Positions 4,578 to 42,020 of a stretch of DNA of 44,209 nucleotides are shown here, piece by piece. Position numbers and translations under genes: made by a program. This stretch comes from Candidatus Acidiferrum typicum (GTDB lineage Bacteria > Acidobacteriota > Terriglobia > Acidiferrales > UBA7541), in contig JAOAPV010000017.1 in the NCBI GenBank assembly GCA_025463055.1, forward strand, positions 1 to 44,209, given 5' to 3'. The notes beneath the pieces are model-generated. The model searched no databases. It was not told the DNA's origin and saw only the letters and a list, made by a program, of their open reading frames with translations. Every line of letters begins with the position of its first letter. Position 1 is the first letter of the stretch.

Positions 4578-4921
4578 CTCGTAAATCCCGTCAGATGAGC
4601 CAACAAAATGTCCACGAGCCTCGGGGCTGTTAGGGTGACCCGCCAAGAGAACGCAAACCAGTTCCTCTCGCAGATGCGCGCGTTGCTAACGTTCCAGTTT
4701 CTGGAGAATGCAGATTTAACCTGAACTGAAAAGTAGAGTTGCGACGGGTAGCCATCTGCGCCATTAAAGGGGCGAAGCAATGCATCGCACTTTTGGGGTT
4801 CGCAGCCATTCGGTAGCTGCAAGTCCTCGAGAAGCAAATACATGCGGCCCTCCATGAGACCGATCACTTTCCCACAGTAGGGCCTCAGCGCCTCAATTTG
4901 TTCCGTCGGATAGTCAGTCAT
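4574..4921 (-). CDS. E2-like protein (prokaryotic E2 family E type)
   Basis: The protein has 115 residues. It shows LQLPNGCEPQKCDALLRP followed by ADGYPSQLYFSV, the strand-turn pattern of bacterial E2/UBC-like proteins near ThiF and JAB genes, and ends with a helix containing LVDILLAHL. Four cysteines are present: C16, C40, C45 and C84. C84 (ARICERNWFAFSW) lies after the YP-containing strand, where classical E2s carry their active Cys before a Trp, so it is the best candidate. It starts 6 bp after the Ubl stop and overlaps the JAB start. Role by family: accept activated Ubl from E1 and pass it to a target. Not all E2 family E proteins keep the Cys. Confidence 0.8.
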   Translation of the reverse strand: MTDYPTEQIEALRPYCGKVIGLMEGRMYLLLEDLQLPNGCEPQKCDALLRPFNGADGYPSQLYFSVQVKSAFSRNWNVSNARICERNWFAFSWRVTLTAPRLVDILLAHLTGFTR

Positions 4922-4927
4922 GTCCGC

Positions 4928-5434
4928 TCACGATGACGCCCCCGACTGCACTTGCGTGAAGAAAATCTCACACCCTTTAATTTTCACGGGCCGATCGGGC
5001 GGCACGGGCATCGGCGGACCCTCCTTCTCCTCCAGCAGGACGTAACCTTCGGGCGTCTTGTTCACCTTGCCCAAAATCTCTGCAACAGTGCGGTCTCCTC
5101 TTTCGATACGGTAAGCAAGCCCATCGATAAAGATTTCGACGACATCTTTGTGAGCTGTAATGAAGCCCTTAAGCCCTTTCTTCCGAAGATCCACTTCTTC
5201 CTTTGGCTCAACCACATCGTTTTCACAGTGCGTGAACTCCTCGATGAGTTCGAACGCGCAGGGACGCTTGCCGACCTTTCCGAGCAAAAACTCCCCGGTG
5301 GGCCGCGGCGTATCGATCTCGAACTTCTCTCCATCGATTCGAACGTGGTACCTGTGCGCGTGCGGGACTTCCGCTCCGCGCTGCGCATATTCGAAGATAT
5401 CCACTGCTGGTTCTTGGCTCTGCGGAAAGTCCAT
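4928..5434 (-). CDS. Tandem ubiquitin-like (multiubiquitin-type) protein
   Basis: The protein has 168 residues from ATG 5434, which is preceded by GAGGAGG at a 9-nt spacing; frames extending upstream run through the promoter and are rejected. It holds two beta-grasp repeats. The first (about 25-93) starts HRYHVRIDGEKFEIDTP and the second (about 96-160) starts VEIFIDGLAYRIERGDRT. Both show strand-turn-strand, the helix-leading 'T..E(I/F)L.KVGK/KVNK' and a closing strand (GLKGFITA / CEIFFTQVQ). The C-terminus is VQSGASS, so cleavage after the single Gly would expose a conjugatable end. It is the first gene of the Ubl operon, divergent from the XRE gene. It may be used whole, or as separate units if cut between repeats. 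Confidence 0.85.
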   Translation of the reverse strand: MDFPQSQEPAVDIFEYAQRGAEVPHAHRYHVRIDGEKFEIDTPRPTGEFLLGKVGKRPCAFELIEEFTHCENDVVEPKEEVDLRKKGLKGFITAHKDVVEIFIDGLAYRIERGDRTVAEILGKVNKTPEGYVLLEEKEGPPMPVPPDRPVKIKGCEIFFTQVQSGASS

Positions 5435-5511
5435 GATTGGGTGCCTCCTCGAGTTGTGCAGTCCGCTCCACAAAGGTCTTTGCTTTTCGCCAAGACACGT
5501 CGTGTGCGATA

Positions 5512-5576
5512 ATTCTCGTACACGAGAATACGCAAAAGGCGAATTCTCGTCAAGTAGCTTTTCTCGCAGGAGAGAA
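5512..5576. promoter_or_regulatory. Operator-like palindromes in the divergent Ubl/XRE promoter
   Basis: ATTCTCGTACACGAGAAT (5512-5529) is a perfect 8-bp inverted repeat with a 2-bp centre. A further half-site ATTCTCGT occurs at 5543-5550. A second, looser dyad TTCTC/GAGAA spans 5561-5576. All lie between the starts of the Ubl operon (5434) and the XRE gene (5612). These are natural binding sites for the adjacent XRE protein (inference). Confidence 0.55.
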
Positions 5577-5611
5577 GTACAATCCCACCAACCCACCTCT
5601 AAAGGAGGCAA

Positions 5612-5995
5612 ATGGCTGACGGCATTGATGTTGCACGGCTCGGACGCCTTGTTCGAAAAAAACGCGAGGAAGACGATCTTTCCCTCCGCGACCTCGCTAA
5701 AATCACAAAAATGAAAATCCCGACTCTTTCTAGAATTGAACGCGGTGCCTCGAAGGATGTGGCCACTGCGTCTTTCCTCGCTTTATCGGAGTGGCTAGGA
5801 GAAGACTTGGAAGAACTGCGCCCACAAAAACCAAAACCCATCGTTCGAAAGAAAAAGGTCGTCGAGCACACCCCAGACATTGTCGAAGTCTATCTTCGCG
5901 CCGATAAAAACCTAGACCGCCAAACCGCCGAGGCGCTCTCCCATCTCTTCCGCAACGCTTACGACAACTACATGAAGTCCCTAAAGAAAGGGTAG
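5612..5995 (+). CDS. XRE-family HTH transcriptional regulator
   Basis: The protein has 127 residues. A helix-turn-helix of the Cro/C1 type spans about residues 8-65: LRDLAKITKMKIPTLSRIE is the scaffold and recognition helix, followed by ALSEWLGEDLEEL. A Lys-rich linker (RPQKPKPIVRKKKVV) leads to a C-terminal helical part (about 90-127) that may dimerise or contact the ImmA-like partner. The start is certain, since AAAGGAGG (5601-5608) precedes ATG 5612 closely. It overlooks palindromes at 5512-5576 and is followed one base after its stop by the ImmA/IrrE gene. XRE-ImmA pairs usually work as a repressor relieved by proteolysis or inactivation. Its target here is probably the Ubl operon and itself. 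Confidence 0.9.
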   Translation: MADGIDVARLGRLVRKKREEDDLSLRDLAKITKMKIPTLSRIERGASKDVATASFLALSEWLGEDLEELRPQKPKPIVRKKKVVEHTPDIVEVYLRADKNLDRQTAEALSHLFRNAYDNYMKSLKKG

Positions 5996-5996
5996 T

Positions 5997-6587
5997 GTGC
6001 TATTGCCGTTCTCCCTGCGAGCCCGAGCGTGGGAACCACATGGCATTGCTCTGCGCAAACGGCTCAATCTTTCAACCCATCACCTGCTCGATCCCTTCAA
6101 ACTCGCGCCATTAATCGGCCTTCGTCTTCTTGATTTGGACGATGAATGTGCGGGGTTGCCAAAAGCTTTTCGCCAACAACTGCTCGTCCATGGAAAGAGA
6201 CAGTGGTCCGGCGGCGTGTACGCCCAGCCGCTACCGGACGGTTCGCGAATTTGTATTCTCAACTCGCGGCACGATCCGCGCCGCATCAAAATCACGCTTA
6301 TGGAAGAAGTTGCGCACATCTACTTGAAACATCCGCCCACCGGTCTCATTCGCTCTATGGACGGATTACGGATGAGGGGATACGACAAGAAGCAGGAGCA
6401 AGAGGCCTATGGAGTGGGAGCTGCTGCACTTCTTCCGTGGGCTGCGATATTTCCGGCAGTCAATCGAGGAATGGCGATTGATGAGCTTGCTGAACAATTT
6501 GAAGTGAGTTCGCAGTTAGTCGACTATCGCATCAAAATCACGGGGGCCCACACACTCTACAAAGCCAGGCAGCGCTCCCTCACCTAA
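5997..6587 (+). CDS. ImmA/IrrE-family (DUF955) metallopeptidase-like protein
   Basis: The protein has 196 residues from a GTG codon one base after the XRE stop, implying translational coupling. The family's metal site region reads LMEEVAHIYLKH (101-112), where the usual HExxH is EExxH: the first His is Glu103, while E104 and H107 remain. The downstream ligand helix QEQEAYGVGAAALLP (about 133-147) is intact. Relatives such as ImmA cleave XRE repressors of mobile elements. A protein lacking one zinc ligand could be a non-proteolytic sensor or use a variant site. The C-terminal part (AIDELAEQFEVSSQLVDYRI) is the helical segment usual for the family. A perfect palindrome overlaps the stop codon. 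Confidence 0.85.
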   Translation: MLLPFSLRARAWEPHGIALRKRLNLSTHHLLDPFKLAPLIGLRLLDLDDECAGLPKAFRQQLLVHGKRQWSGGVYAQPLPDGSRICILNSRHDPRRIKITLMEEVAHIYLKHPPTGLIRSMDGLRMRGYDKKQEQEAYGVGAAALLPWAAIFPAVNRGMAIDELAEQFEVSSQLVDYRIKITGAHTLYKARQRSLT

Positions 6588-9619: not shown

Positions 9620-12600
9620 TTAGAAGCTGATCCGCGCGGTCAGTTCAACCGACCGAGGTCCAGCGCCTTCCGCCGTTTGCAGCCCGGTCAGAGTGCCGAA
9701 TCCTTGCGTGTCGACAGCCATGTTTGGCGGTTCGTAGTTGCGATGGTTCAATAAATTTGCGACTTGCGCCCCGAACTGTAGTCGAAGACTCTCGGTGAAC
9801 TTAACGGTTTTGATCAGCGACATCGAGACGGATTGTGTCCCGGGCCCGACAACGCTGCCTACCCCGGCATTGCCAAATCGTCCGATAGCGTCTCCTGGCA
9901 CAGAGAAGGCCGCAGCATTGAGAAACAGAGGTCCATTGGGACTTGTGAGGCCGTGTGCGTAGGGCGAGACTCCCTTGACGACATCCGGCCGGGAGAAATA
10001 CGCCGTATTCACCTGGTTTGTTCCGGCTGGATCGGCGCTGGTGTCGTATGGCGTGAGGAAAGGACCGCTTTGCGCTAAAACGACTCCGGCCATTTCCCAA
10101 CCGCCGAGCACGCGGTCAATAAAGGCATTGCTGCCGCTGAGGAATCTCTTGCCGCGTCCAACAGGGAATTCATAGAGATAAGTAACCAGAAAGCGATGAC
10201 GCCGATCATAAATTACGTTTCCATAGTCGAGTCCCGGATGGAATCTGTCAGACATCCAGTTCCCACCGGCTCCCACGAACGCCGTTGGATTGCCTCCTCC
10301 TTCGTTCGAGAGGTCTCGCGTGAACGAATAACTGCCCTCGAATTGCAGGCCGGAGGAATAACGCTTCTTCAGATCAACAGTCAAGGCATTGTAATTGCTC
10401 TCTGCCTGGTTGTAGACACTCTGCAAGACGCTCCAGATTGGAAAAGGACGGTTCGCACCTGCGACTGCGTACCCCTGGGTGTTGGCTGGAATCTGGTTAA
10501 GATCAATCATGGTTTCGAGGTTCTTGCCGTGACTTCCGGTGTAGGAGAGACGGAGACCCGTACCGAAACCCAAGTCCCTTTCAAAGGTCAAATTCCACTG
10601 TTGCACGGAGGGATCGTGATAGCGGGTGGGAAACGCGTAGTAAAACGTTTGTGAGCCGGAAACGTTCAGATTCGCCGGAAATGGAGAAGGATATGTCAGG
10701 GCCGCATTTCCGCTGCTGTCGAAGCTCTGGTAGTAGTAGGGCACGCTGCTCGCGTGAACTGCCCAGCCGGAAACCAGGGAGAACCCGAGCGGCGCCTCGA
10801 TGAAGCGTCCATAACCACCTCGGACAACTGTTTTATCGTTGTGGAATGGGCGCCACGCGAATCCGACGCGGGGACCATAGTCCGATTTGTCGGTATACCG
10901 GAGCTTGTCCGGAATTCCCGCTTGGGCAGCTGTCAAAATGGGCGTTGGAGCGATTGATTCCGCGAAAGCGGGTATCGTCCAACTCAATCCCTTCGCATTG
11001 GGCACGACCACGGCCCCGGTTACGGCCTGCCCGTTCACGGTGCCCTTCCAGTTCGGCAGGAAGTCCGCCGTGTTATAGGCGGTGTCCTTGAGGGGGGGAT
11101 GAATTTCGTATCTCAAACCAAAATTGAGGGTCAGACTTGGTGTAACTTTCCAGTCATCTTGCGCGAACACGGCGTACGAATAACCCAGGCCATTCATAGC
11201 CGGATTGTTCACCTGCGAGAGCACCGTGTAGTCCGGATATCCCAACAGGAAGGCGGCAAACGGGTCGCCCACGACCGGAGGACTTGTCGCCGTGGGAGCA
11301 TTGCCGTTGATGTCGTTGCAAGTTACGGAACAATCGAACGTATACTGCCCGGAACGTGTGTTCCCGAAAACGTTGTCGTCATGATCGGTCATCCTTCGGA
11401 AATCTCCGCCGAACTTCAGCGTGTGATTGCGCTTCGTCCAAGTGACATTGTCGATGATCTGAAAAATGTTGCTGCGTTGCAGCGATGGATTGGCTCCTGC
11501 TGTTTGCTGAAACCCGGTAATCTGAAAGTTTGGTGCAGTGGGGATCTGATCGAGCGTAACGCCTGCGGGAATCACCAAGCCAAGTTGGCTAAGAATCCCA
11601 GCAGTATTTACGTTAAAAGTTGTTTCAGCATGCAGTCCGTTGAATCCGGCTCGCAGCTCATTGATCAAGGTAGGCTTGATCACATAGTTGTGGGCTACGG
11701 TCAGGCCGGAATCCTGTTCGGGTTGAGAGAAAGGCCCCAGGGCAGGAGAGCCACTCGTGGCGCAGAACCCCTGGCAGTTTGGATAAGGAGCTGAAGTTAC
11801 CTGGCGTTTCTTATAGGTCCCGCGAGCATATATTGACTGCTTTGAATTGATTCTTTGATCGAGGCGCAAGTCCGCTTGGTTGCTGGAAATGGGGGCTGGG
11901 AAATTCACTTGGTAGTTATTCGAAAATGTACTCGCCGATCCAACGTTAGGCAGCGGATACAAGCTGTTCATTACGTTTGCGGCCAGAGACGAAACAGGTA
12001 CGGACCCGCACGGAATTGGCGTTCCATTCGGTTGGTAAACCTGCGTGCCATTCAAATAACCGCAAAGATTTCCGCTTCGCATGTCCAGTGAGGAAACGCT
12101 TTCCAGTAGCGGCGTTTGTCTGGGTAACCGCAAACCCTCATAGCTCATGAAAAAGAAGGTGCGGTCGCGCCCGTTGTAAAGCTTCGGAAAACTAACCGGC
12201 CCGCCGAAAAATCCTCCAAAATTATTCATCACTAGTTTGGGCTTGGAGGTTGCGAACGGATTGCCGGCGTTGAGCGCGGCATTTTCATGATTTTCAAAAA
12301 TTCCGCCATGATAGGAATTCGTTCCGCTCTTGGACGTCGTAGTGACGTCGCTGACGCCGCTGAACTCAGCGTTGTTGTTTGTCTCGCTTACTCTGATCTC
12401 CTCGATGGAGTTAAACGAAGGGAACAGCTCGTTAATCGGGCCACTGCTCTCCACATTCACGCTGCTGATGCCATCAATTGTGTACGACATAAGCGCCGGG
12501 GTGGCCCCAGCGACGGTTAGATTCCCGCTGTCGTCCGTTTGCACGCCGGGCTGGGTCGTTAGCGTGGAAATCGGACTCGTCGAACCTGCGGAACGCGAGT

Positions 12601-13105
12601 AGATCGCCACTGGCAGATCGACAAGCTCCCGGCCGGTCTTGATTTCGGCCAGGTTCGATTCGTCGGTCGTTACGATGGCTCCAGCCGTTCCCTCGACGGT
12701 CACGGTTTGCGTTTGCGAGGCAACCTTCAAGCTGGCATCCACTCGTTTCGTCTCTCGCGACTGGAGGTCCAGCGTGGTGAATTGGATCTTCTGAAAGCCC
12801 GACAGTTCCACCGTCAATTCATATGTTCCGGCTTCGACATTGACAAATGAATAGGATCCAGCCTGATCGGTGGCTAGCGTCCTCACAGCGGACGTGCCCC
12901 TATTTGTCAGCATCACGGCGGCACCGGGAACCACGTCCCCGGACGGATCCTTCACGGTTCCAAGAATGCTTCCGAACGTCGACTGACCGAGTGTGGGCAC
13001 AGCCGAAACAACAAGTAGCAATGTGGCAAGCGCCATAAAAATCAATAGGCCCATACTGCGCGCTCGTCGTGACTTCAATCCGATATGCTCTCTGCAGTCC
13101 ATCAT
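9620..13105 (-). CDS. Oar-like TonB-dependent outer-membrane receptor
   Basis: The protein has 1,161 residues from ATG 13105, preceded by GGAGG at 7 nt; a longer frame to 13348 lacks an SD and a coherent N-terminus. A signal peptide lies within the first 45 residues (LLIFMALATLLLVVSAVPTLGQ). A carboxypeptidase-regulatory-like domain follows (GTVKDPSGDVVPGAAVMLTN ... GSYSFVNVEAGTYELTVELS), then a plug domain with YTIDGISSVNV and EIRVSETNNNAEF, then a long beta-barrel ending in Phe (VELTARISF), the usual outer-membrane targeting residue. These receptors are abundant in Acidobacteriota and import large or complexed substrates; the substrate here is unknown. It heads an operon with the GAF-ANTAR gene and is divergent from the qhp locus. 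Confidence 0.93.
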   Translation of the reverse strand: MMDCREHIGLKSRRARSMGLLIFMALATLLLVVSAVPTLGQSTFGSILGTVKDPSGDVVPGAAVMLTNRGTSAVRTLATDQAGSYSFVNVEAGTYELTVELSGFQKIQFTTLDLQSRETKRVDASLKVASQTQTVTVEGTAGAIVTTDESNLAEIKTGRELVDLPVAIYSRSAGSTSPISTLTTQPGVQTDDSGNLTVAGATPALMSYTIDGISSVNVESSGPINELFPSFNSIEEIRVSETNNNAEFSGVSDVTTTSKSGTNSYHGGIFENHENAALNAGNPFATSKPKLVMNNFGGFFGGPVSFPKLYNGRDRTFFFMSYEGLRLPRQTPLLESVSSLDMRSGNLCGYLNGTQVYQPNGTPIPCGSVPVSSLAANVMNSLYPLPNVGSASTFSNNYQVNFPAPISSNQADLRLDQRINSKQSIYARGTYKKRQVTSAPYPNCQGFCATSGSPALGPFSQPEQDSGLTVAHNYVIKPTLINELRAGFNGLHAETTFNVNTAGILSQLGLVIPAGVTLDQIPTAPNFQITGFQQTAGANPSLQRSNIFQIIDNVTWTKRNHTLKFGGDFRRMTDHDDNVFGNTRSGQYTFDCSVTCNDINGNAPTATSPPVVGDPFAAFLLGYPDYTVLSQVNNPAMNGLGYSYAVFAQDDWKVTPSLTLNFGLRYEIHPPLKDTAYNTADFLPNWKGTVNGQAVTGAVVVPNAKGLSWTIPAFAESIAPTPILTAAQAGIPDKLRYTDKSDYGPRVGFAWRPFHNDKTVVRGGYGRFIEAPLGFSLVSGWAVHASSVPYYYQSFDSSGNAALTYPSPFPANLNVSGSQTFYYAFPTRYHDPSVQQWNLTFERDLGFGTGLRLSYTGSHGKNLETMIDLNQIPANTQGYAVAGANRPFPIWSVLQSVYNQAESNYNALTVDLKKRYSSGLQFEGSYSFTRDLSNEGGGNPTAFVGAGGNWMSDRFHPGLDYGNVIYDRRHRFLVTYLYEFPVGRGKRFLSGSNAFIDRVLGGWEMAGVVLAQSGPFLTPYDTSADPAGTNQVNTAYFSRPDVVKGVSPYAHGLTSPNGPLFLNAAAFSVPGDAIGRFGNAGVGSVVGPGTQSVSMSLIKTVKFTESLRLQFGAQVANLLNHRNYEPPNMAVDTQGFGTLTGLQTAEGAGPRSVELTARISF

Positions 13106-13833
13106 GACTCTGCCTCCATCTATCCTTGCGAGTTCGGTTTCGCGAACGCGAAAACACGGGGTCGTGATGCATCCACCGGGTAGGAAGAAGACAACCTCCG
13201 CGCGAGCGGGGAATACGGCCGGCGCTAGGAACGTCTCTGTTCCTCGGGCGATGGATTTGTTTGCTCGTCTTGGAGCGCGCTCCCCTGGGAGCGTTTCGGA
13301 ACGGCTAGGTGGACACAACGGGGTGTCGTTTGTCTCGCCGGAGGGCACCGAACAACTTGCGTATCAGGTACACCCCAAAGAGTTCCGAGAGAGCGTTGAC
13401 CGCGATCCCGGAAAGTTGGCGTGTATCTTCGGCCTTCGCTGCGGAAATGCAAACGCAAAAATTGAATTCTATAAATCGCGAATGCGCTGCACGCGCGTCG
13501 GGATCACGAATTCTTGTCCCGATATCGATCTACTGAGAAAGCAATTCGGGAAAGCCAGCTCATACAATATCCGCTTAAACCCTCCTGGACGAGATCAACG
13601 CTTTATAATTCTTCGGAAGCAAATCTTCGAGCAGGCGGATACTAGAAGCAATCACAATCGAATGTATCTATTTTTTGAGGTTGTATTCCTCCGCGAAAAG
13701 CAGATTATGCGGGACACGTTTTTCGCTTACCCTCATTCGCTGTTCCTGTGGTAGGCACGGCACCAAGTTGTGCCTCTGTGACTCAGCGCTCCCCGTCCGA
13801 GCCGCTCAAATTGTCAGACCGAAAGGATGCGCA
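13106..13833. other. Divergent regulatory region between TonB receptor and qhpA
   Basis: This 728-bp region has no supported gene. A long plus-strand frame (12993-13754) overlaps the receptor start antisense and has no domain or ribosome site. An inverted repeat AGGCAC/GTGCCT spans about 13754-13776, 58 bp before qhpA. An AT-richer stretch lies near 13460-13480 (GAATTCTATAAATCG) and 13655-13690. The region should hold both promoters. No QhpR-type AraC regulator gene is present. Confidence 0.45.
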
Positions 13834-15594
13834 ATGGCGCGGCGTGACCGTCTCAGCTCGCTACATCGATCCACAACAGCTTTGCTTCTCGTTGTATGGC
13901 TCGCATTCTCCGCGCGCTCTCTCTTCCCACAAGACTCGCCGGCTGCGGCAACTTCCAAGCCGGCGGAGTCGCCGAGCGAAAACGGCTTTCCGGTGAACAA
14001 CGCGCTGGTCGTAAGCAAATGTGGCGGCTGCCACGCTACCGACGCAAAAGGCAACATGTCCCGCATTTCCTGGATTCGCACCACTCCTGAAGGCTGGGAG
14101 GAAGCCATAAAGCGCATGGTTCGACTGCACAGCGTCGCGCTCGATCCATCTGATGCCCGCAAGATTCTTCATTACCTTAGTGACGAGCACGGACTCGCGC
14201 CGGAAGAGGCTAAGCCCGTCGAGTATTTTCCCGAAAATCGCATGATTGATGAGCGTGTGCCCAGCGAAGCGATCACGCGCTCTTGCGTTGCCTGTCACGC
14301 TTTGGCAAAGCCGCTCTCTTGGCGCCGCAGTCCCGAAGACTGGAAGCTCCTCATCAATACCCACATTGCTTTCTTCCCATGGGTCGATAGCCTCAATTTT
14401 CAGCGACCGCCGCAACGTCCAGGCGATCCGCCGCCTCCGTCGGGAAGCGATACACGCGCCCCCGTCGAGCAGGCGCTCGCGTATCTCAATCAAGCTGGAT
14501 CGCTACACTCGGCGGAATGGGCCGACTGGCACGCTCGCATGCGCTCGCCGAAACTGGATGGCCGCTGGCTTGTTTCTGGCACGCAACCTGGCAAAGGGAA
14601 ATTTTTTGGTGCCGTCGAGATCGCCGCGATTCCCACCGGCGATGGATTCACAACAAAAACAAAACTGACCTTCCCCGCCGACAACTCGACAGTCACTGCG
14701 TCCGGCAAAGCCATTGTTTATACCGGCTACGCTTGGCGCGGACGTTCCACTACGGACAAGGCCGGCGCAGCTCCCAACGATCTATCAACCACCCGTGAAG
14801 TGATGATGCTTTCCAAAGATCAGTCGCGGTTGGAAGGCCGCTGGTTTTGGGGGGCGTATCAGGAATTTGGCATGGACGTCGAAATGCGCCGGGCATTGGA
14901 CGGGTCAACGATCTTGGGTATCGACAAATTCGCCTTGAAGACCGGAAGCTTCGCGAGCGAAGTGCAGATCTACGGTGATCGGCTGCCCGCAAATCTCTCG
15001 CCCTCCGACATCGATCTTGGTGTCGGGACCTCAGTCAAGAAGGTAGTCAGCAGCACACCCACTTTGGTGAAAATTATTGTGGACGTGGCAACCAATGCGA
15101 TGCCGGGCAAACGCGATGTAGCCATTAGAGCTGCCGTCGCCCCTGGTGCGTTTGCCGTTTACGATCACATCGATTACCTGAAGGTTTCGCCGCAAACTCC
15201 GCTCTCGCATCTTGGCGGCGACCCGCACGCGAAGGGCTACTGCCAACTTGAAGCTATTGCGTACGCCAATGGCCCGGACAGCAAACCTAACACCGCGGAC
15301 GACATTGAGCTCGGTCCCGTAAACGCGAAATGGAAACTCGAAGAATTCGTCGCCACTATGGGCGATGATGACATCGATTTTGTTGGCACTCTCGACGCCA
15401 ACAGCGGCTTGTTCGCGCCCGCTCTCGACGGCCCGAATCCTAAGCGCAAATTTGGCCGTAACAATTACGGTGATGTTTGGGCTGTCGCGACATTCAAATC
15501 CGCGGGCTCGGACCAGCCTCTTACCGCTCGCAGCTATCTAGTAGTAGCCATTCCCCAATACATGCGATGGGATCAGCCAGAGGTGGCACAGTGA
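13834..15594 (+). CDS. qhpA: Quinohemoprotein amine dehydrogenase alpha subunit (di-heme)
   Basis: The protein has 586 residues from ATG 13834, with AAAGGA 6-7 nt upstream. The signal peptide is TTALLLVVWLAFSARSLFPQ. Two c-type heme sites are visible in the N-terminal cytochrome domain: C63GGC66H67 and C151VAC154H155. Long beta domains follow, with FFGAVEIAAIPTGDGFTT and GYAWRGRSTTDKAG, the layout of the QHNDH alpha subunit. The periplasmic enzyme oxidises primary amines; electrons leave the CTQ cofactor of the gamma subunit through these hemes. It is the first gene of an operon; its TGA overlaps the qhpD GTG start (GTGA). Size and order match Paracoccus and Pseudomonas loci. Confidence 0.93.
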   Translation: MARRDRLSSLHRSTTALLLVVWLAFSARSLFPQDSPAAATSKPAESPSENGFPVNNALVVSKCGGCHATDAKGNMSRISWIRTTPEGWEEAIKRMVRLHSVALDPSDARKILHYLSDEHGLAPEEAKPVEYFPENRMIDERVPSEAITRSCVACHALAKPLSWRRSPEDWKLLINTHIAFFPWVDSLNFQRPPQRPGDPPPPSGSDTRAPVEQALAYLNQAGSLHSAEWADWHARMRSPKLDGRWLVSGTQPGKGKFFGAVEIAAIPTGDGFTTKTKLTFPADNSTVTASGKAIVYTGYAWRGRSTTDKAGAAPNDLSTTREVMMLSKDQSRLEGRWFWGAYQEFGMDVEMRRALDGSTILGIDKFALKTGSFASEVQIYGDRLPANLSPSDIDLGVGTSVKKVVSSTPTLVKIIVDVATNAMPGKRDVAIRAAVAPGAFAVYDHIDYLKVSPQTPLSHLGGDPHAKGYCQLEAIAYANGPDSKPNTADDIELGPVNAKWKLEEFVATMGDDDIDFVGTLDANSGLFAPALDGPNPKRKFGRNNYGDVWAVATFKSAGSDQPLTARSYLVVAIPQYMRWDQPEVAQ

Positions 15595-17024
15595 CCGTCT
15601 ATTCATTAGGTGAATTCCGCCGGTTCCGCGGGCAGAGCGGCGATTTCCTGTATCTGGTCCCGAGCGGCGGCATCTTCTCTCTCGATGAAGCTTCCGCGGC
15701 GATTCTCGACAAGCTCTCGGATGGGCCGCTCTCGCGCACAGACCTGATCGGCTGTGTGTCGCAAAAAATCGGCTACTCGCCTTTGGATGTCACCGAAACC
15801 GTTCAAGAACTCAGCCAAGTCCACGCTATCCGTGACGGCTCTCCAATCTCCACCGCTCCGCAGCAACTCCCGGAGCATTTCCCCTTACAAACCTTGGTGA
15901 TGAACCTGACGAATCAATGCAATCTTTCCTGCCAGTATTGCTACGAATTCGGCGAAGACAAAATCGCGACTCCCGAAGGCAAAAAGAAGTTCATGGATCG
16001 CGAGACCGCGAAGTCCTCAGTGGACTATCTGCTGTCGCAATCCGAAGGGCGCCGCTCCGTGCACATCACTTTTTTCGGCGGCGAGACGTTGATGAATTTC
16101 CCAATGCTGCGCGAAGTCATCGACTATGCCAGCGAGCAAGCCGCCCGCAAAAACGTGAAAATCGATTTCAGCCTTACCACCAACGCCACGCTTCTTACTC
16201 CCGTCATCATCGACTATCTGGCCGCCAACAAAGTCGGCGTAACCGTCAGCCTCGACGGGCCCAAGGAGATGAATGACGCGTTTCGCGTCTTCTCCAATGG
16301 CCGCGGCAGCTACGACATTATCGAGCCTAAAGTGCGTGAACTCCTTGCTCGCCATCACACCCGGCCTATCGCGGCGCGTGTGACCATGACTTCGCAAGCC
16401 ATGGACGTGTTCAAGATTTACCGCCACCTGAAACACGATCTTGGTTTCCACGAAGTCGGCTTCGCTCCCGTAACCTCTTCCGCGAATCGCTTGTACTCCA
16501 TCGGTGTGCCCGGCATGAACGACGTCTTCTCTCAGTTCGGCGAACTCGCCCAAGAATATCTCTCCTTCGCTCTTCGCGGCGAACTGCACGGCTTTTCCAA
16601 CGTCAGCGATACACTCGCGGAGCTGCATCAGGGTGTGAACAAGTCGCATCCGTGTGGAGCTGGCCTTGGCCTCCTGGGCGTCGGACCTTCCGGCGACATC
16701 GCTCCCTGCCATCGCTTCGTCGATTCCGATCAGCACAAACTTGGAAACGTCACTACCGGACTCGATAAACAGAAGCAGTCGGACTTTTTGAACCGCGGCA
16801 ACATTCAATCCAAGACTGATTGCCACAGCTGTTGGGCGCGTCCGCTCTGCGCAGGCGGCTGTCATCACGAAGCCTTCGTGCGCTATGGCGACACCGGACA
16901 CCCAAATCTTCATTATTGCGACTGGATTCGCGGATGGACGCATACCTGTCTCGAAATCTATGGCGCTCTGGCCGAGAGGAATCCGGCATTCCTGGACTAC
17001 TTCGCGGAAAGGAAGGCGGTATGA
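15591..17024 (+). CDS. qhpD: Radical SAM/SPASM QHNDH maturase
   Basis: The protein has 477 residues from GTG 15591, which overlaps the qhpA stop; longer frames intrude into qhpA. The SAM-cluster motif is C110NLSC114QYC117 (CxxxCxxC) after LVMNLTNQ. HITFFGGETLMNFPML is the GGE region. The C-terminal SPASM part carries many cysteines: HPCGAG, IAPCHRF, DCHSCWARPLCAGGCHHE, HYCDWIRG. An N-terminal PqqD/RRE-like domain (1-95; SLDEASAAILDKLSDGPLSR) would bind the QhpC leader. The family forms the Cys-to-Asp/Glu thioether bonds in the gamma subunit in the cytoplasm. It is coupled to qhpC through an ATGA overlap. Confidence 0.94.
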   Translation: MTVYSLGEFRRFRGQSGDFLYLVPSGGIFSLDEASAAILDKLSDGPLSRTDLIGCVSQKIGYSPLDVTETVQELSQVHAIRDGSPISTAPQQLPEHFPLQTLVMNLTNQCNLSCQYCYEFGEDKIATPEGKKKFMDRETAKSSVDYLLSQSEGRRSVHITFFGGETLMNFPMLREVIDYASEQAARKNVKIDFSLTTNATLLTPVIIDYLAANKVGVTVSLDGPKEMNDAFRVFSNGRGSYDIIEPKVRELLARHHTRPIAARVTMTSQAMDVFKIYRHLKHDLGFHEVGFAPVTSSANRLYSIGVPGMNDVFSQFGELAQEYLSFALRGELHGFSNVSDTLAELHQGVNKSHPCGAGLGLLGVGPSGDIAPCHRFVDSDQHKLGNVTTGLDKQKQSDFLNRGNIQSKTDCHSCWARPLCAGGCHHEAFVRYGDTGHPNLHYCDWIRGWTHTCLEIYGALAERNPAFLDYFAERKAV

Positions 17025-17359
17025 AGCATCTTCGGGCTGTGAATCGCAAGGCGCTGCGCATCGAGGAGCATGTTGCGCCAGCTCGCGAGGACGATGTGGT
17101 CGCCCTCCAAAATCCGGCCGGTCCCAAGCCGCACATACCCATGGGCTGCTCGCTCGTGTTCTTCCCCGGATGGGAAGTCGATTCCGCGGGTGGCACCGCG
17201 GGCCTTTGCCAACCGGTCGAGCGCGACCTCTTTGATTGCTACGTCACTTGCTTTTGGCCCGCGCATGTCCCCGACCATTTAAACAATTCGCCCGATTGGA
17301 CTAGTAAATGCGCGGTAGGCACCAAGGACTGGCGCAACGTCGATATAGTTTTCCCATAG
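17021..17359 (+). CDS. qhpC: QHNDH gamma subunit, CTQ-bearing cross-linked peptide
   Basis: The protein has 112 residues from ATG 17021, overlapping the qhpD stop. Aligning Cys43 with Cys7 of the mature Paracoccus gamma subunit puts every modified residue in register: C43/E52, C63/D69 and C77/D85 for the three thioether bridges, and C73/W79 for the cysteine tryptophylquinone. One additional Cys lies at 97. The same register makes the leader about 36 residues (the Paracoccus leader is 28), ending near NPAGPK. The leader is needed for QhpD action, is cut by QhpE, and the peptide leaves through QhpF. There is no Sec signal, as expected. It is the catalytic subunit of the periplasmic enzyme. Confidence 0.94.
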   Translation: MKHLRAVNRKALRIEEHVAPAREDDVVALQNPAGPKPHIPMGCSLVFFPGWEVDSAGGTAGLCQPVERDLFDCYVTCFWPAHVPDHLNNSPDWTSKCAVGTKDWRNVDIVFP

Positions 17360-17384: not shown

Positions 17385-18557
17385 ATGATGCGCTCGATTC
17401 TTTTTTCGCTGTTCTCAGCCTTGCTCGCCGTTTCAGCATACGCGGCGCCCGGCGACGGCGCCGGGTTGATTTACCTGGCCACCTGGCCGCATCAAATCCT
17501 TGTCTTCGATACCAGCCAGGAGAAAATCATCGACCACATCGATCTGACCACTGACATAGCTCAGCAGATCGTCGTTTCACCCGACAAGAAAAAACTCTAC
17601 GGTTACACGGTTAAGGACAACTCCATCGTCACTATCGACCTCGCGGCGCGAAAACAAGTCAGCGTCTTTCCGTTGAATGAACCCAACCGCAGCGTGCGCC
17701 TGCTTGGCCTCGCTCCTGATCCCAGCGGCAAGTTTCTTTATTCCGTCGGCCCTTCGGTCGTAAAGCAACCCGATCACTATGACATCGAGCCCACCAAGTT
17801 CATGGTCATTGACCTCGACAATCACAAGATCACCCGTACCGTCGACTTTCCGAAAGACGAGAGCCTCTCAGGCTTCTTCCGCCTACAAATGAAATTCTCA
17901 CCCGACGGAAAATATTTCTACATGTTTCTCGGCAATGTTCTGATCTTCGATAGCCAGACCCTCCAGCTCGTAAAGAAAATCGACCTCGTGGACCCTCACG
18001 TTCCCGGAATCGGAAACGTCATCTTTAACCCCGTCGAAGAAGAACCGGCCGAAGATCCCAACGAGGAGCCTGGCAAGCTCACCAATGTTTTCATGTCCAC
18101 GGATCCCTACGTCCATCGAGCGGTTTTCGGTATCGCCAAAATCGATCTCGCCAACCTCTCGTTCGATTTCACGCCTATTGCTCCTGCGACGACGCTATCC
18201 ATGACCCCGCTGCTCTACACTCCTGATCATTCTGTCGGCTACACAATCGCTATCAACGGCACGCCCGGCAATCGCCGTTGTGAGTTTTGGGCTTTCGATA
18301 TGAAAACGCGCAAACTCATCAACAAAAAAGAATTCGAGGGCCGCAACCGGTTTTCTTTCGGCCTCTCCGCTGATGGCACCAAAATCCTCATCTACGGCGC
18401 TGGCTACGAGATTGACGTCTACGACGCAAAAACGTTTGAGTTTCGACGCAACATCCCCTTGCCCGGTGATATGACCAGCAACATCATCGTCATGCCCGGC
18501 CCTGCAGCTATGGCTCGTTTGGCATCATCTGCAAGCAGCTCTGCGGCGGTCCACTGA
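17385..18557 (+). CDS. qhpB: QHNDH beta subunit, first copy
   Basis: The protein has 390 residues with a signal peptide (MMRSILFSLFSALLAVSAYA). GGAGG at 17377-17381 fits the ATG at 17385 or 17388. The mature part is a repeated-blade beta propeller of YVTN type: LIYLATWPHQILVFD, EKIIDHIDLTTD, VSPDKKKLYGYTVKDN, LAPDPSGKFLYSVG, FSPDGKYFYMFLGN. In the known enzyme the seven-bladed beta subunit covers the gamma subunit and helps form the active site between chains. It lies 25 bp after qhpC. A second full-length beta gene follows directly, with clearly similar sequence throughout. Confidence 0.92.
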   Translation: MMRSILFSLFSALLAVSAYAAPGDGAGLIYLATWPHQILVFDTSQEKIIDHIDLTTDIAQQIVVSPDKKKLYGYTVKDNSIVTIDLAARKQVSVFPLNEPNRSVRLLGLAPDPSGKFLYSVGPSVVKQPDHYDIEPTKFMVIDLDNHKITRTVDFPKDESLSGFFRLQMKFSPDGKYFYMFLGNVLIFDSQTLQLVKKIDLVDPHVPGIGNVIFNPVEEEPAEDPNEEPGKLTNVFMSTDPYVHRAVFGIAKIDLANLSFDFTPIAPATTLSMTPLLYTPDHSVGYTIAINGTPGNRRCEFWAFDMKTRKLINKKEFEGRNRFSFGLSADGTKILIYGAGYEIDVYDAKTFEFRRNIPLPGDMTSNIIVMPGPAAMARLASSASSSAAVH

Positions 18558-18616: not shown

Positions 18617-19783
18617 ATGTTGACTCGCGTTTCGCGCTGCGTGCTTGCCTGTTTGGGCCTTCTGCTCATCGCAACATCCAATCGCGCTGCGGACAGTTTT
18701 AGCCAACTGATCTTTTTCGGGACGTGGCCGCATCACGTCGTTGTCTTCGATTCCGCTCAGGAGAAAATCGTAGACAACATCGACCTCAAGACCGACGTTC
18801 CTCGCACGCTGATCCTGTCTCCCGATAGAAAGAAAATCTACGCGTCAACGCTCAACGATAACGCGATCGTCACCATCGACGTCGCCACTCGGAAGGTCCT
18901 CTCCTCTTTCACTCTCAATCAAGGCAATCAAAACGTCCGGCTAGTCGGTCTCGCCCCTGATCCCACCGGCAATTATCTTTACGCGATCGCCACCATCATC
19001 TCAAAAAAAATGGACCACTATGATGTAGATCCTGCGAAGTTTGTCGTCATCGACCTCGCAGCGAAAAAAATAACACGCACTGCCGCCTTTCCTCCAGACG
19101 AAGGCACATTTGGCTTCCGTACCACTATAAAACTCTCGCCCGACGGTAAAGTGCTGTATCTCTTTCGTGAAAACATCCTGGCCTTCGATACGTCGGAGTT
19201 CAAGCTCCTCAAGAAAATTGATCTCGCCAAACCGCAGGTCCCTGATATGGAGAATTTGTCTGTCAATCTTCTTGATGATCCCAACGAGCTTCCCGGAAAA
19301 ATCACCAGCGTCTTCAACGCAGCCGACGGGATCATTCATCGGCGGGTCTTTGGCATCGGTACTGTCGACCTCTCCAATCTCTCATTCGATTTCACACCTA
19401 TCGCTCCAGCACCCGGCACCATGACTCCACTCTTCCTCACCCCCGACCGTAAAACTGGTTACACCGTCTCCATCACTGGCGATCCCGGCAACCGACGGTG
19501 CGAGTTCTGGGCCTTCGACATTGCCTCCCGTAAACTTATCCGGAGCCGCGAATTCGACGGTCGGACGCGCTTCTCCTTCGGCCTTTCTGCCGACGGCACC
19601 AAGCTCCTCATCTACGGCGCCGGCTACCAGATCACGGTCTACGACGCCACTACGTTTGAGCAGCGCAACGATGTCGACGTTCCCGGCGACATGACTACCA
19701 ATTTCGTCGTTCTGCCGCTGACCTCTTCCTACGCCTCAGCGCCAGTCGGTAGAAATAACTCCTCCTCTCCGGTCCGTCGATGA
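18617..19783 (+). CDS. QHNDH beta subunit, second copy
   Basis: The protein has 388 residues with its own signal peptide ([20 protein letters not shown]). It aligns end to end with the preceding gene: [15 protein letters not shown] against [29 protein letters not shown] against LAPDPSGKFLYSVG, and both end with an [11 protein letters not shown] - YDATTFE/YDAKTFE - PGDMT series. Identity looks like about 60% by eye. Both copies are intact, so this is a retained duplication rather than decay. It may give alternative enzymes with different substrate pockets, or one copy may serve another partner. It is separated by 59 bp from copy one. Confidence 0.9.
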
Positions 19784-19796
19784 TGCAGAGGTGCCC

Positions 19797-20912
19797 ATGA
19801 ACGCCAAGGCAACAATATTCGTTTTTGCGGGTTGTTTCGTCGCCTTTACCGGCGTTTCCTTTCGCAGCGCAAGCGATGAACCTGCGCCAGCTACTTGGAA
19901 TAAACAAGCCGCCGCCAGCTATCTCGATGCTCGTCAAACTTGGTGGATGCACTGGCCTAAAGCCGCCCGCGACCATGACACTTTCTGCGTCTCCTGCCAC
20001 ACAGTGGTCCCCTATCTCCTGGCTCGCTCCGCTCTGCGTTCGGCTCTCGCGCAACCCGCCATTTCAAGCGACGAGCGCAAAATCCTCGACAATGTTCAAA
20101 AGCGCGTGCTGCTTTGGGACGGGCTCGAGCCCTTCTACAGCGATGAAAAAGTTGGACCTATGAAAACGCCGCAATCGCGCGGCACAGAATCGGTCCTCAA
20201 TGCTCTGATCCTCGCGTCGTACGAAACTCAAGATGCGGCGCTGCGTCCCGCTTCAGCCAAGGCGTTCGCCAATATGTGGGCGTTGCAGCAGAAAACCGGC
20301 GAGAAAAGAGGAGCCTGGGCTTGGCTGAACTTCCAGATGGAGCCTTGGGAGGCTGAGGACTCGCAATTCTACGGCGCCACTCTGGCGGCCATTGCTGTTG
20401 CGATGGCTCCGAACGACTATCGTTCTTCGCCGCAAATTCAGCCCAACTTGCAGTTGCTTCGCGAATACCTGCACCGCGGCTGCGAAGCGCAATCGCTAAA
20501 CAATCGCGTCATACTCCTCTGGGCGTCCACGAAACTTCCGGGCCTTCTGACGCCGGAGCAGCAGATTGCGCTCACGTCGAGAGTCCTCTCCCTCCAGCAA
20601 CCAGACGGCGGCTGGAGTCTTTCCTCTCTCGTCGGCGCGTGGAAGCGCGGAGATAACACTCCGCTGGAAACAAAGAGCGACGGCTACGCCACTGGCACGA
20701 TCGCATTTGCCCTGGAACAGACCGGGCTATCTCGCAGCAATCCTCAATTGCGCAAAGCCCTATTCTGGCTCGCCTCCAACCAAGACACGAAACGAGGCCT
20801 TTGGCCGGCGTATTCCTTGAACAAGCAGCGCGATCCATCCGCCGATGGCTGGCTCTTCATGAGCGATGCCGCCACGGCGTACGCGGTTCTCGCTTTGACC
20901 GAGGCTAACTGA
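19797..20912 (+). CDS. c-heme protein with squalene-cyclase-like alpha/alpha toroid
   Basis: The protein has 371 residues from ATG 19797, with GAGG 5 nt upstream. The N-terminus is a signal peptide ([19 protein letters not shown]). A single c-type heme motif C64VSC67H68 follows, then helical repeats of the prenyltransferase/squalene-oxidase type: [88 protein letters not shown]. No DxDD or DDTAD catalytic acid motif of real cyclases is seen, so cyclisation is unlikely. It sits inside the qhp operon, 13 bp after beta copy two and before the exporter gene, where Paracoccus has no such gene. A role as electron acceptor or assembly factor for QHNDH is plausible but untested. Confidence 0.8.
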
Positions 20913-20983: not shown

Positions 20984-22747
20984 GTGCCGTCTAGGATCAC
21001 GAACATCCCATTCACTGAATACCGGCGTGCCCTTGCGTTCGTTTCGCCGTATTGGGGAAGACTCGCACTGGTCGCCGCCCTGGGGTTGTTTTCCACCGCC
21101 GTGGGTCTCGCGCAGCCTTACATCTCCCGCCTCCTGATTGACGACGCTCTCGTTCGCCACAATCTTCGCGCGCTGTGGACTATCGCCACCTTGATGGTCG
21201 TCGTCACTATCGCCGGCTTTGCGCTCAACATCTGCTCGAGTTATCTCTACGTCCGCTTCTCCGCGGAGTGCCTCTTCGACATGCGTCTTGCGGTCTACCG
21301 CCATCTTCAGAAGCTTTCGCCGCGTTTTTTCGCCAAGAGCAAGCTCGGCGACCTGGTTTCCCGCATTAACAACGATATTGGCGAAGTCCAGCGTATCTGT
21401 GCCGATACCTTGCTGTCTTTCCTATCGAACATTCTCTTCTTCGTCGGCAGCGTCGCCATCATGATCTCCCTGAACTGGCGTTTGTTTCTCGTCGGCGTCG
21501 CGCTCCTGCCGCTTAGTATCTTTGCTCTCCGCCATTACCAGCATCGCCTCGCGGCGGAAGCAAAGACCATGCGCGAGCGCAGCTCGGAACTGGGCAGCTT
21601 CCTGATCGAATCGATCCTGGGCATGCGTCTCGTTGTCGCTACCGCTAACGAGGAGCGCGAAACCCAGGAATTCCGCCGCCGTAATTCCAATTTCATCCGC
21701 TCGCTGCTTTCCATGCAGTGGATGTCTTTCCTCGGCGGCGCTCTTCCCGGGTCTATTCTCACCGTTTCAAGCGCCATCGTTTTTCTCTACGGCGGGAAGC
21801 TGGTCATTGATGGGCGACTCACCATCGGAGGCTTGGTAGCCTTCATGGCGTACCACACGCGCCTGCTCTCACCGGTGCAAACCCTGCTCGGCACTTACAC
21901 AAATCTGGTAACCGGCGGCGTCTCCCTCGGCCGCGTCTTCGAACTCTTCGACACGCCTGTGGAAGTCCAGGAATCCGCGAGCGCGGCACCGTGTGGCAGA
22001 CTTCGGGGCGAAGTTTCCTTCAATCACGTCCGGTTCCGATTCTCGCCGGATACTTCCGTACTCGAAGACGTCTCCTTTCGCATTCCCGCCGGATCTATCT
22101 GCGCCGTGGTTGGTGCAAGCGGTGCAGGAAAGTCCACTCTTGCGGATTTGGTTCTTCGCTTCTATGACCCGGATTCCGGCGTCGTAACCATCGACGGCCA
22201 CGATGTTCGAACGTTGCGGCTCAGCGATCTTCGGCGTGAAGTCGCCCTAGTCGAGCAAACTCCCTATCTCTTCCGTGCTTCCGTCCGCGAAAACATCGCC
22301 TACGGAAGACCTGGTGCCACTTTGGACGAAATCCGGGCCTGCGCTCGGGATGCCGCGCTTGATTCCTTCATCGCCTCGCTCCCCGAAGGCTATGACACCA
22401 TCATCGGCGAGCGGGGCAGCACCATGTCTGCGGGTGAACGACAGCGAATTGCCCTGGCCCGCGCTCTTCTCCGTAATCCTTCCGTTCTCGTCTTGGACGA
22501 GCCTACTTCTGCGCTCGACCCCGTTTCCGAAAGCAGCGTTGCCGATGTGCTTTCCGGCGCGTTCGCGGGCCGCACCGTCATCCTCATCACACATCGCATG
22601 TCTCTCGCGGAAAAGGCGGACAACATTGTCGTCTTGAAGGATGGCCGGATCGTTCAGCAAGGGACTCCTCGCGAGCTAATTTCTTCGCACGGTGTGCTCG
22701 AACACTACTTTCAAGTTATGCGAAGCCCAGTCGCGGAAATCGCATGA
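20984..22747 (+). CDS. qhpF: ABC transporter (fused permease-ATPase), QhpC exporter
   Basis: The protein has 587 residues from GTG 20984, with AGGA about 7 nt before. Six transmembrane helices fill residues about 20-305. The ATPase half has Walker A GASGAGKST (377-385), Q-loop ALVEQTPYLF, signature MSAGERQ (481-487; LSGGQ in most exporters), Walker B VLVLDEPTSALD and switch His in LITHRMS. It is a type I exporter half-size unit, acting as a homodimer. In QHNDH loci this protein carries the cross-linked gamma subunit across the inner membrane. Its stop overlaps the qhpE start (ATGA), tying protease and exporter together. Confidence 0.9.
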   Translation: MPSRITNIPFTEYRRALAFVSPYWGRLALVAALGLFSTAVGLAQPYISRLLIDDALVRHNLRALWTIATLMVVVTIAGFALNICSSYLYVRFSAECLFDMRLAVYRHLQKLSPRFFAKSKLGDLVSRINNDIGEVQRICADTLLSFLSNILFFVGSVAIMISLNWRLFLVGVALLPLSIFALRHYQHRLAAEAKTMRERSSELGSFLIESILGMRLVVATANEERETQEFRRRNSNFIRSLLSMQWMSFLGGALPGSILTVSSAIVFLYGGKLVIDGRLTIGGLVAFMAYHTRLLSPVQTLLGTYTNLVTGGVSLGRVFELFDTPVEVQESASAAPCGRLRGEVSFNHVRFRFSPDTSVLEDVSFRIPAGSICAVVGASGAGKSTLADLVLRFYDPDSGVVTIDGHDVRTLRLSDLRREVALVEQTPYLFRASVRENIAYGRPGATLDEIRACARDAALDSFIASLPEGYDTIIGERGSTMSAGERQRIALARALLRNPSVLVLDEPTSALDPVSESSVADVLSGAFAGRTVILITHRMSLAEKADNIVVLKDGRIVQQGTPRELISSHGVLEHYFQVMRSPVAEIA

Positions 22748-23475
22748 CTTTGCGGGTACGCATCGGCATGATTGACACGGGTGTGAACGTCGCGCACCCT
22801 CACGTCGGCAACATCGCCGGCGGCGTCACCATCGGGCCGGAGGGAGAGACCGCGGACTACGAAGATCGGCTCGGTCACGGCACCGCTATCGCCGCCTTGC
22901 TCCACCAGCAAGCCCCTGAAGCGCAGCTAATCGGGGTGAAAGTCTTTGACCGCAGCCTTGCCACAAATCGAGACACTGTCATTCGCGCTATCGATTGGTG
23001 CCTGCGAAACGAAATCGACATCATCAATCTCAGCCTTGGCACCGCCAATCCGGCCCATCGCATTGGGTTCGAGGACGCCGTGCGCCGCATTAGCGCTAAT
23101 GGCAAAGCCATTGTCTCCGCCCACGATATCAACGGCACCCTCGCCCTGCCCGGCTGCCTCCCCGGCGTAATCGCCGTTGTGCCGGACACGACCTGCAGTG
23201 ATTCGATCCATGTCTTCAGGCCCAACGGGACTTCCGAATCTGCAAAGCCCACGGAACTCATTGACTCGAGGCCAGGAAAAATTATTTTCTCCGCTTCACC
23301 GTATCCCCGTGAAATTCCCGGTGTCCCCCGCGATCGTAACATCCACGGCGTAAGTTTCGCCGTAGCCCACGTCACGGCAGCTCTAGCCCGCCTCTGGCCC
23401 ACCGCGCCCGTCTCGCAAGATTGGGAATCCACTCTCGCCAACGCGTTGTTAAGTTTTCAGACTGTAGAAGCGTAG
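22744..23475 (+). CDS. qhpE: Subtilisin-like serine protease, QhpC leader peptidase
   Basis: The protein has 243 residues, short for a subtilase and without signal peptide or propeptide, so it works in the cytoplasm. The catalytic triad is visible: D11 (GMIDTGVN), H45 (GHGTAIA) and S204 (HGVSFAVAHV). Segments NEIDIINLSLG and SAHDINGTLALPG match the substrate-binding core. In Paracoccus the counterpart removes the QhpC leader after cross-linking. It overlaps qhpF by four bases and is the last plus-strand gene of the operon. It ends 57 bp before the convergent qhpG gene. Confidence 0.92.
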   Translation: MTLRVRIGMIDTGVNVAHPHVGNIAGGVTIGPEGETADYEDRLGHGTAIAALLHQQAPEAQLIGVKVFDRSLATNRDTVIRAIDWCLRNEIDIINLSLGTANPAHRIGFEDAVRRISANGKAIVSAHDINGTLALPGCLPGVIAVVPDTTCSDSIHVFRPNGTSESAKPTELIDSRPGKIIFSASPYPREIPGVPRDRNIHGVSFAVAHVTAALARLWPTAPVSQDWESTLANALLSFQTVEA

Positions 23476-23531: not shown

Positions 23532-24581
23532 CTAAAGCCGCACAAAATCAAAATCCACCAATCGGTACCGCGGTGCCGATTGCTCACCTATTTCTTTTCT
23601 CGCCCAAGAGACCCCGTCGTCCAACATCGCCAATTCTTTGCTCCAGAACGGCGCTCTGCTGTTGACCTGATAAAACGTCCGGCACATCTCCAGGTGGCGC
23701 AAAAACCCCAGCCTCATCCGCAGCGAAAACTCCGCCAGCACTTCGTCCGCGTCATCTCCACGCAGAAGTGCCCGGACCGTTGCTGCTGCCAGGATGGCCT
23801 GCCGCACCGCTGCTCCTGTCCCTTCTCCCGACAGCGGATCGAAAGACATTGCCGCGGTTCCGCAAGCGATCCAATCCCCTCCGTGCAATTTCGACAGCGT
23901 CCGCGGATAAGCGGCGAACTGAGCGGCCTCCGGCTCACGGTTCAGCCTTTCGATCTGTTCGCAAACGAGTCGGCTGCCTTGCAGCAACGAAGCGGGTTCG
24001 CCTCCCGTACAGATGAGCAACCCATCTTCATTTCCAATCGCAATCAGAAATAGCCAACCACTCTCCACCGATTCCGCCCAACACGCATCCTTTTCCGCCG
24101 ACTCGCGGAGCCTGACCTCCGTAACTCCCGCCACCCGCGAACCAAACCGCAATTCCGGTGCCAGCTCCTCCGAACCCTTCGAGGTGAAGATGTTCCACTC
24201 CACTTCGTCCGGTCCATCGCTAGTCGAGGCTGGAACGCGTGCCTGCAAACGCTCCCCAATCGCCTGGTCCCCCACGATCACCGCGGAATGAGGAAAGGTC
24301 TCCGCCTTCGCACCATTCCAAGCCACAACTCGCTTGCGAATCTTTGGCAATCCATCAAACAGTTTTTCATTTTGGAAGATTTCACCCAGGAGGGCCTGCG
24401 TTCCGTTACTGATCAAGACCGCCGGCAATTTCGGCCGCGATGTCTGAGCGGGAACAATCGTCGATTGTTGTTCGCGCAACAACGTCGCACAGCAGCATGC
24501 TGCAATCCCCTGGCCGTGTATCGCAATGCGCGCAGTCATGGGGTTACGTCTTTGCGCAGGTCCAAATCCGGGAGCAGCCAT
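23532..24581 (-). CDS. qhpG: FAD-dependent monooxygenase of CTQ biogenesis
   Basis: The frame has 349 codons; initiation at Met 24539 (MTARIAIHGQG, 335 residues) is equally likely because no clean SD favours either start. The Rossmann FAD fingerprint is IAIHGQGIAACCCATLL near the N-terminus. The FAD-ribityl motif SFDPLSGEGTG lies near residue 270, after GDWIACGTAAM. In the known pathway QhpG hydroxylates the precursor tryptophan of the gamma subunit, starting quinone formation. It is encoded on the opposite strand, convergent with qhpE, whereas the other qhp genes form one plus-strand operon. It would need its own promoter in the region above 24581. Confidence 0.88.
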   Translation of the reverse strand: MAAPGFGPAQRRNPMTARIAIHGQGIAACCCATLLREQQSTIVPAQTSRPKLPAVLISNGTQALLGEIFQNEKLFDGLPKIRKRVVAWNGAKAETFPHSAVIVGDQAIGERLQARVPASTSDGPDEVEWNIFTSKGSEELAPELRFGSRVAGVTEVRLRESAEKDACWAESVESGWLFLIAIGNEDGLLICTGGEPASLLQGSRLVCEQIERLNREPEAAQFAAYPRTLSKLHGGDWIACGTAAMSFDPLSGEGTGAAVRQAILAAATVRALLRGDDADEVLAEFSLRMRLGFLRHLEMCRTFYQVNSRAPFWSKELAMLDDGVSWARKEIGEQSAPRYRLVDFDFVRL

Positions 24582-42014: not shown

Positions 42015-42020
42015 GGAGCT

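Follow-up and report, generated by a model that had tools for sequence, protein, structure and literature searches.

What does a protein that combines a c-type heme motif with the fold of a terpene cyclase do in the gene cluster of an amine dehydrogenase? This question is raised by a 44,209-nucleotide stretch of DNA from Candidatus Acidiferrum typicum (hereafter, the window), which is contig C14 of a 5.33-Mb genome in 146 contigs. Its cluster of qhp genes for quinohemoprotein amine dehydrogenase (QHNDH) encodes, in order, QhpA, QhpD, QhpC, two QhpB-like propellers, the protein in question (hereafter, the toroid protein), a QhpF-type exporter, QhpE, and, on the opposite strand, QhpG. The toroid gene starts 13 bases after propeller copy 2, and the exporter gene lies 71 bases downstream on the same strand. 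With a QhpB-like propeller on one side and a QhpF-type exporter on the other, the location between beta-type and exporter genes assigned by the first-pass annotation was correct. For the propellers, QhpE, and QhpG, qhp models were the best matches yet scored below their cut-offs, and the exporter had no match to a qhp-specific model. A promoter scan found 3 promoter-like sites, compared to 4.5 expected by chance, and a terminator scan found 18 terminator-like sites, compared to 13.2 expected by chance.

Table 1. Positions in the window of the qhp genes, the toroid gene, and features of the toroid protein.
Feature	Position	Strand	Basis or remark
QhpA, diheme alpha subunit of QHNDH	13834..15594 (ORF open from 13675; start uncertain)	+	TIGR03908, 506 bits (cut-off 274)
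QhpD radical SAM maturase	15567..17024 (start uncertain)	+	TIGR03906, 606 bits (cut-off 453)
QhpC, CTQ-bearing gamma subunit	17021..17359	+	NF037958, 130.5 bits (cut-off 50)
QhpB-like beta propeller, copy 1	17385..18557	+	TIGR03907, 76 bits (below cut-off 223)
QhpB-like beta propeller, copy 2	18617..19783	+	TIGR03907, 77 bits (below cut-off 223)
CxxCH toroid protein, 371 aa	19797..20912	+	ORF, profile searches, AlphaFold model, structure match
Signal-peptide-like hydrophobic N-terminus	19797..19880 (end approximate)	+	Read from sequence
CVSCH, heme c attachment motif, aa 64-68	19986..20000	+	Loop between helices 1 and 2
QQPDGGW, aa 267-273	20595..20615	+	Only strict QW-type motif
Met355 codon, candidate second heme ligand	20859..20861	+	Start of ring-closing helix
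QhpF-type ABC exporter	20984..22747	+	ABC_membrane and ABC_tran; position in qhp locus
QhpE-type subtilisin	22744..23475	+	NF049966, 151.7 bits (cut-off 165)
QhpG-like flavin monooxygenase	23532..24581	-	NF049967, 75.7 bits (cut-off 240)

Several other features of the window were recorded. The tandem QhpB-like propellers are 55% identical; QHNDH has one beta subunit. An Oar-like outer-membrane receptor gene (OMP_b-brl_4, CarboxypepD_reg; 9620-13348, minus strand) adjoins QhpA, similar receptors occur between the toroid gene and QhpA at three other loci (L111, L122, L150) and beside the toroid gene at three more (L103, L116, L119), and receptors of this type may occur widely in these genomes. 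Genes for a ThiF-family protein, an unassigned product, a Multiubiquitin protein, and an M78 peptidase form a small ubiquitin-like set at 3250-6587, and an AMP-binding enzyme and its neighbors at 40197-43664 resemble part of a biosynthetic cluster.

A single CxxCH motif on a terpene-cyclase-type toroid

The toroid gene starts with ATG, preceded by AGAGG at 19787-19791, and a GTG codon is in frame two codons upstream. Export of the protein was judged from hydropathy alone: a hydrophobic stretch like that at its N-terminus, where AlphaFold confidence was low, was found by a crude hydropathy test in 65 of the best 80 of 224 relatives. The protein was modeled as a single alpha/alpha toroid, with no separate cytochrome domain, and confidence rose from a pLDDT of 83.4 with 15 sequences to 92.6 (pTM 0.89) with 73. 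VIA-align placed model residues 31-371 closest to squalene-hopene cyclase among solved structures (1sqc; Z 21.5, rmsd 3.7, 273 residues aligned); other class II terpene cyclases came next, ahead of GH88/GH105-type and epimerase toroids. Sequence searches pointed weakly in the same direction, with matches to Pfam SQHop_cyclase_C (PF13243; E 0.0048, 16.4 bits, cut-off 26.1), TIGR01507 (E 5e-5, 21.8 bits, cut-off 431.1), and, in the PDB, squalene-hopene cyclase (E 0.001); the cyclase matches span the C-terminal 75 residues. No Pfam or NCBIfam model scored above its cut-off, and up to E 0.1 the only Pfam match was SQHop_cyclase_C, with none to a cytochrome c profile.

The toroid protein thus shares its fold over residues 31-371 with squalene-hopene cyclase and small class II terpene cyclases (1sqc, 8paj, 8pak, 7xq4, and MstE 6sbc; Z 18-21.5, 13-20% identity), and the QxxDGGW motif is common to both. 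Unlike these enzymes, it has a CxxCH motif, is predicted to be exported, lacks DxDD, and falls below the Pfam and NCBIfam cut-offs; it is also one toroid of 371 residues, whereas squalene-hopene cyclase has two domains and 620 residues. DxDD is the proton-donor motif of the squalene-hopene cyclase family, and a regular-expression search of the toroid protein for D.DD gave no match, in agreement with the first-pass statement that the cyclase acid motif is absent. The co-occurrence in one protein of a hydrophobic N-terminus, one CVSCH (the only CxxCH in the chain), and cyclase-type helical repeats, also proposed there, is borne out by the sequence, the AlphaFold model, and the structure match.

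A signal-like N-terminus, a single CxxCH, and a conserved methionine elsewhere in the chain are features of monoheme c-type cytochromes, but the toroid protein has neither a cytochrome c match in Pfam nor a separate cytochrome domain in its model. A heme c site on a non-cytochrome fold has a parallel in a Cache sensor domain whose c-type heme motif derives from a cytochrome (PMC12889525); that domain is extracytoplasmic, as predicted for the toroid protein, but has another fold and a sensor role. In the literature searched, a partial set with most subscription journals outside it, we found no description of such a heme-toroid protein, and a similarly partial search on QHNDH in Acidobacteria returned nothing naming it. 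Plasmid records yielded a single relative (47.6% identity), encoded in Sphingobium sp. RAC03 and recorded as a 'hypothetical protein'; no qhp name occurs among its 21 annotated neighboring features.

Conservation of CxxCH and Met355

The CxxCH motif was present in all 15 aligned relatives among the 20 matches from a phylum-wide sample (the five left unaligned were L015, L020, and the weak partial matches L017-L019, and the L020 region also has the motif), in 81 of 81 core sequences, histidine included, and in all four distant relatives aligned. Given its presence in every aligned relative and core sequence, CVSCH is not a chance occurrence. Cys64, Cys67, His68, and Met355 were invariant in 11 of 11 core rows from the unbiased phylum sample. 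Met355 was also found in 81 of 81 core sequences, a count biased by one retrieval pattern that contained this methionine. Position 355 is isoleucine or leucine in the four distant rows, which retain CxxCH, and methionine ligation, if it occurs, would therefore be limited to the core family.

Among 69 core rows, positions conserved at 95% or more made up 30 of 121 in odd-to-even helix loops versus 2 of 40 in the loops on the other side; the corresponding counts for helices were 24 of 87 (even) and 13 of 85 (odd). On these counts, a pocket is conserved on one face of the toroid, which carries CxxCH as well as Met355 at the beginning of the last helix; the two sites are adjacent in ring order, and the same face includes Trp, Asp, Glu, Lys, Arg, and Asn residues. 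The even helices are presumably the inner ones, and Met355 may reach the iron of a heme bound at CVSCH. The host genome has three matches over cut-off to PF01578, a cytochrome-c-assembly family.

A distant group of CxxCH toroids without Met355 includes L063:8668-11658, L061, and L065. An amidase gene follows the member in L063, and a secreted protein of one similar type, with no family match, adjoins those in L061 and L065.

Recurrent but not obligatory linkage to qhp genes

Relatives of the toroid protein in the phylum-wide sample and in a scan of named genomes were mostly from Acidobacteriota. In a class sample (an even draw of 319 genomes, with the toroid gene called at E 1e-40), 74 genomes had the toroid gene and 36 had QhpA. 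No QhpA was detected in 58 of the 74, and 20 of the 36 QhpA genomes had no toroid gene match at this threshold, so the toroid protein is not reserved for QHNDH and is not required for its production. Co-occurrence was nevertheless enriched, both in the class sample (16 of 36 QhpA genomes versus 74 of 319 overall; Fisher p 0.002, kinship uncorrected) and in the phylum sample (8 of 11 genomes with strong matches versus 13 of 286 without; p 2e-8, kinship uncorrected). The two genes were 0.4-5.1 kb apart in nine of the 16 class genomes that have both (G000, G389, G451, G481, G484, G490, G529, G638, and G656), compared to 0.06 pairs expected within 10 kb under random placement in 6-Mb genomes. In the other seven, they were on different contigs or far apart, and two genomes of the phylum sample (G225, G241) also had both genes far apart. 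G656 has two copies, the qhp-linked one being the more divergent. Three QhpA-type genes lie within about 20 kb on one contig in each of two genomes (G451:C81 and G490:C41).

The named-genome scan, which covered the best 80 of 224 relatives and flanks of at most 10 kb, often shorter, placed qhp genes in the same locus for 13 of these 80 relatives (two on the basis of QhpG or QhpE alone) and found none within the available flanks for 67. QhpA scored over its cut-off in 30 of the 78 genomes of this set, drafts whose completeness is not stated, and was absent at that level from 48. The linked arrangements differ. The toroid gene lies between propeller and exporter genes in the window and L154, after QhpE and before QhpA in L122, upstream of QhpA on the same strand in L150 and G451, divergent from QhpA in L132, L133, and G529, facing QhpB in L124 and L135, and beside QhpG in L143, L095, and G656; in the window, L154, L122, L150, and G451, it is inside a co-directional run. 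L133 is the cultured strain Paracidobacterium acidisoli 4G-K13. In a 92-row tree, the 14 qhp-linked rows required 12 changes, at least eight of them forced by starred branches, and 79 of 500 label shuffles required as few (quick tree, SH-aLRT only); a single qhp-specific clade was rejected on this basis, the qhp-linked copies being dispersed through the tree of the family. A protein dedicated to qhp was likewise rejected, given the class genomes that have the gene and no detected QhpA. Copies from bins labeled Beta- and Gammaproteobacteria (L145, L164) sit among Acidobacteriota on the tree, reflecting either binning error or transfer.

Repeated arrival beside qhp genes in differing orders supports a functional link that is not obligatory. 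In the first-pass annotation, the protein was 'tied to QHNDH'; the recurrent linkage upholds this idea in part, but the wording was too strong because homologues are mainly outside qhp loci (including 65 of the 74 class genomes) and have mixed neighbors there. The context of homologues is accordingly divided, with most copies elsewhere and qhp linkage recurring all the same. The same annotation held that the protein was not part of the described pathway, and it is indeed outside the set given in the QhpG paper, qhpABCDEFGR (PMC7876137). Like those components, the toroid gene is located in the qhp cluster, and it is repeatedly found next to qhp genes; unlike them, it is missing from many genomes with QhpA and occurs in others without QhpA.

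Immediate neighbors outside qhp loci (83 genes; first 25 of 93 families listed) were heterogeneous. Amidases, at 4 of 83, were in slight excess over 1 of 83 control genes located more than 3.5 kb away (first 25 of 98 families listed), aldehyde dehydrogenases accounted for 3 of 83, and the other listed families for at most 3. A second shared context outside qhp was rejected on these counts. At one locus (L115), the toroid gene is followed by a gene for a PQQ-type dehydrogenase that includes a cytochrome c domain. In most qhp loci without a toroid gene, a search out to 7.5 kb found no additional gene for a small heme c protein, and we thus saw no 'acceptor slot'. Candidate cytochrome c ORFs were present in 4 of 20 such loci, two of them doubtful, and in 2 of 14 qhp-linked toroid loci, with none in the window; replacement of the toroid gene by another cytochrome c gene at qhp loci was rejected on this comparison.

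A candidate electron acceptor for QHNDH

The toroid protein probably belongs to an as yet undescribed type of electron carrier. The small carrier that serves QHNDH varies among bacteria, with cytochrome c550 and azurin as examples, and the toroid protein is dispensable for this enzyme, as judged from the QhpA genomes that lack it. The simplest role for a dispensable, apparently heme-bearing, periplasmic protein encoded beside a dehydrogenase that passes on electrons from its diheme subunit is that of acceptor. Our tentative reading, to which we give somewhat less than even weight, is that it is periplasmic, carries one c-type heme on a fold other than that of cytochromes, and accepts electrons from QHNDH in some Acidobacteriota while doing something else elsewhere. 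The protein would be exported to the periplasm, and heme would be attached at CVSCH on a loop of the alpha/alpha toroid rather than on a cytochrome c fold, with His68 as one iron ligand and Met355, at the mouth of the toroid, as the likely second. In this genome, the diheme alpha subunit of QHNDH would be its electron donor, and the respiratory chain would be the recipient of the electrons. It would be an exchangeable, lineage-specific acceptor, not a part of QHNDH or its maturation, and in genomes without QHNDH it would serve other periplasmic redox enzymes.

The main rival is a catalytic role, because the last oxidation to CTQ is left open in the QhpG paper, where the alpha-subunit hemes are offered as a suggestion (PMC7876137). 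Substrate would bind in the toroid cavity and a heme at its mouth would carry out redox chemistry, for example, in a MauG-like role, the final periplasmic oxidation that turns dihydroxy-Trp into CTQ, or a reaction on amine or aldehyde products. The polar and aromatic residues of the conserved face exceed the needs of a simple electron carrier, the nearest folds are enzymes with their active site at that face, and amidases and aldehyde dehydrogenases are among the neighbors outside qhp loci. The neighbors there are mixed, however, Met355, if a ligand, would leave no open site on the iron, and the QhpA genomes without the toroid gene mean that the protein is not a general finisher of CTQ. We regard an enzyme as unlikely, albeit with an appreciable share of the probability. 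Even a redox role would leave QHNDH aside if the toroid protein were a free-standing periplasmic heme protein whose gene occupies the same kind of accessory region as qhp. The preponderance of copies outside qhp loci, their heterogeneous neighbors, and the genomes in which both genes are present and unlinked fit an absent or weak link of this sort, but the excess of close pairs over random placement, in several arrangements and with the toroid gene repeatedly inside co-directional runs, makes it clearly unlikely.

The first-pass annotation had also offered a chaperone. Location among maturation genes, between QhpB-like and QhpF genes, would suit a chaperone, assembly factor, or sensor for QHNDH, but the many genomes with only one of the two genes disfavor such roles, and the set qhpABCDEFGR suffices elsewhere according to its description (PMC7876137); we consider them highly improbable. 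It is very unlikely that the CxxCH motif holds a metal ion or a disulfide bond in place of heme. The fold is not that of a cytochrome and matches no cytochrome c family in Pfam, as such a role would allow, but the protein appears to be exported, the motif is kept with its histidine throughout the core family, and the host genome has genes for heme c assembly.

The electron-acceptor reading, if true, would mean that a terpene-cyclase fold has been turned into a heme c protein, and it would widen what counts as a c-type cytochrome. It would also provide a testable answer to which carrier takes the electrons of the amine dehydrogenase in Acidobacteriota and give a name to a protein now annotated as hypothetical. 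Possibly, although we would not yet favor it over its negation, the toroid protein represents a new class of c-type heme protein, with heme held by His68 and Met355 at the mouth of a squalene-cyclase-type toroid, that serves as a periplasmic redox partner across Acidobacteriota and Gemmatimonadota and has been repeatedly recruited as the acceptor for a CTQ amine dehydrogenase.
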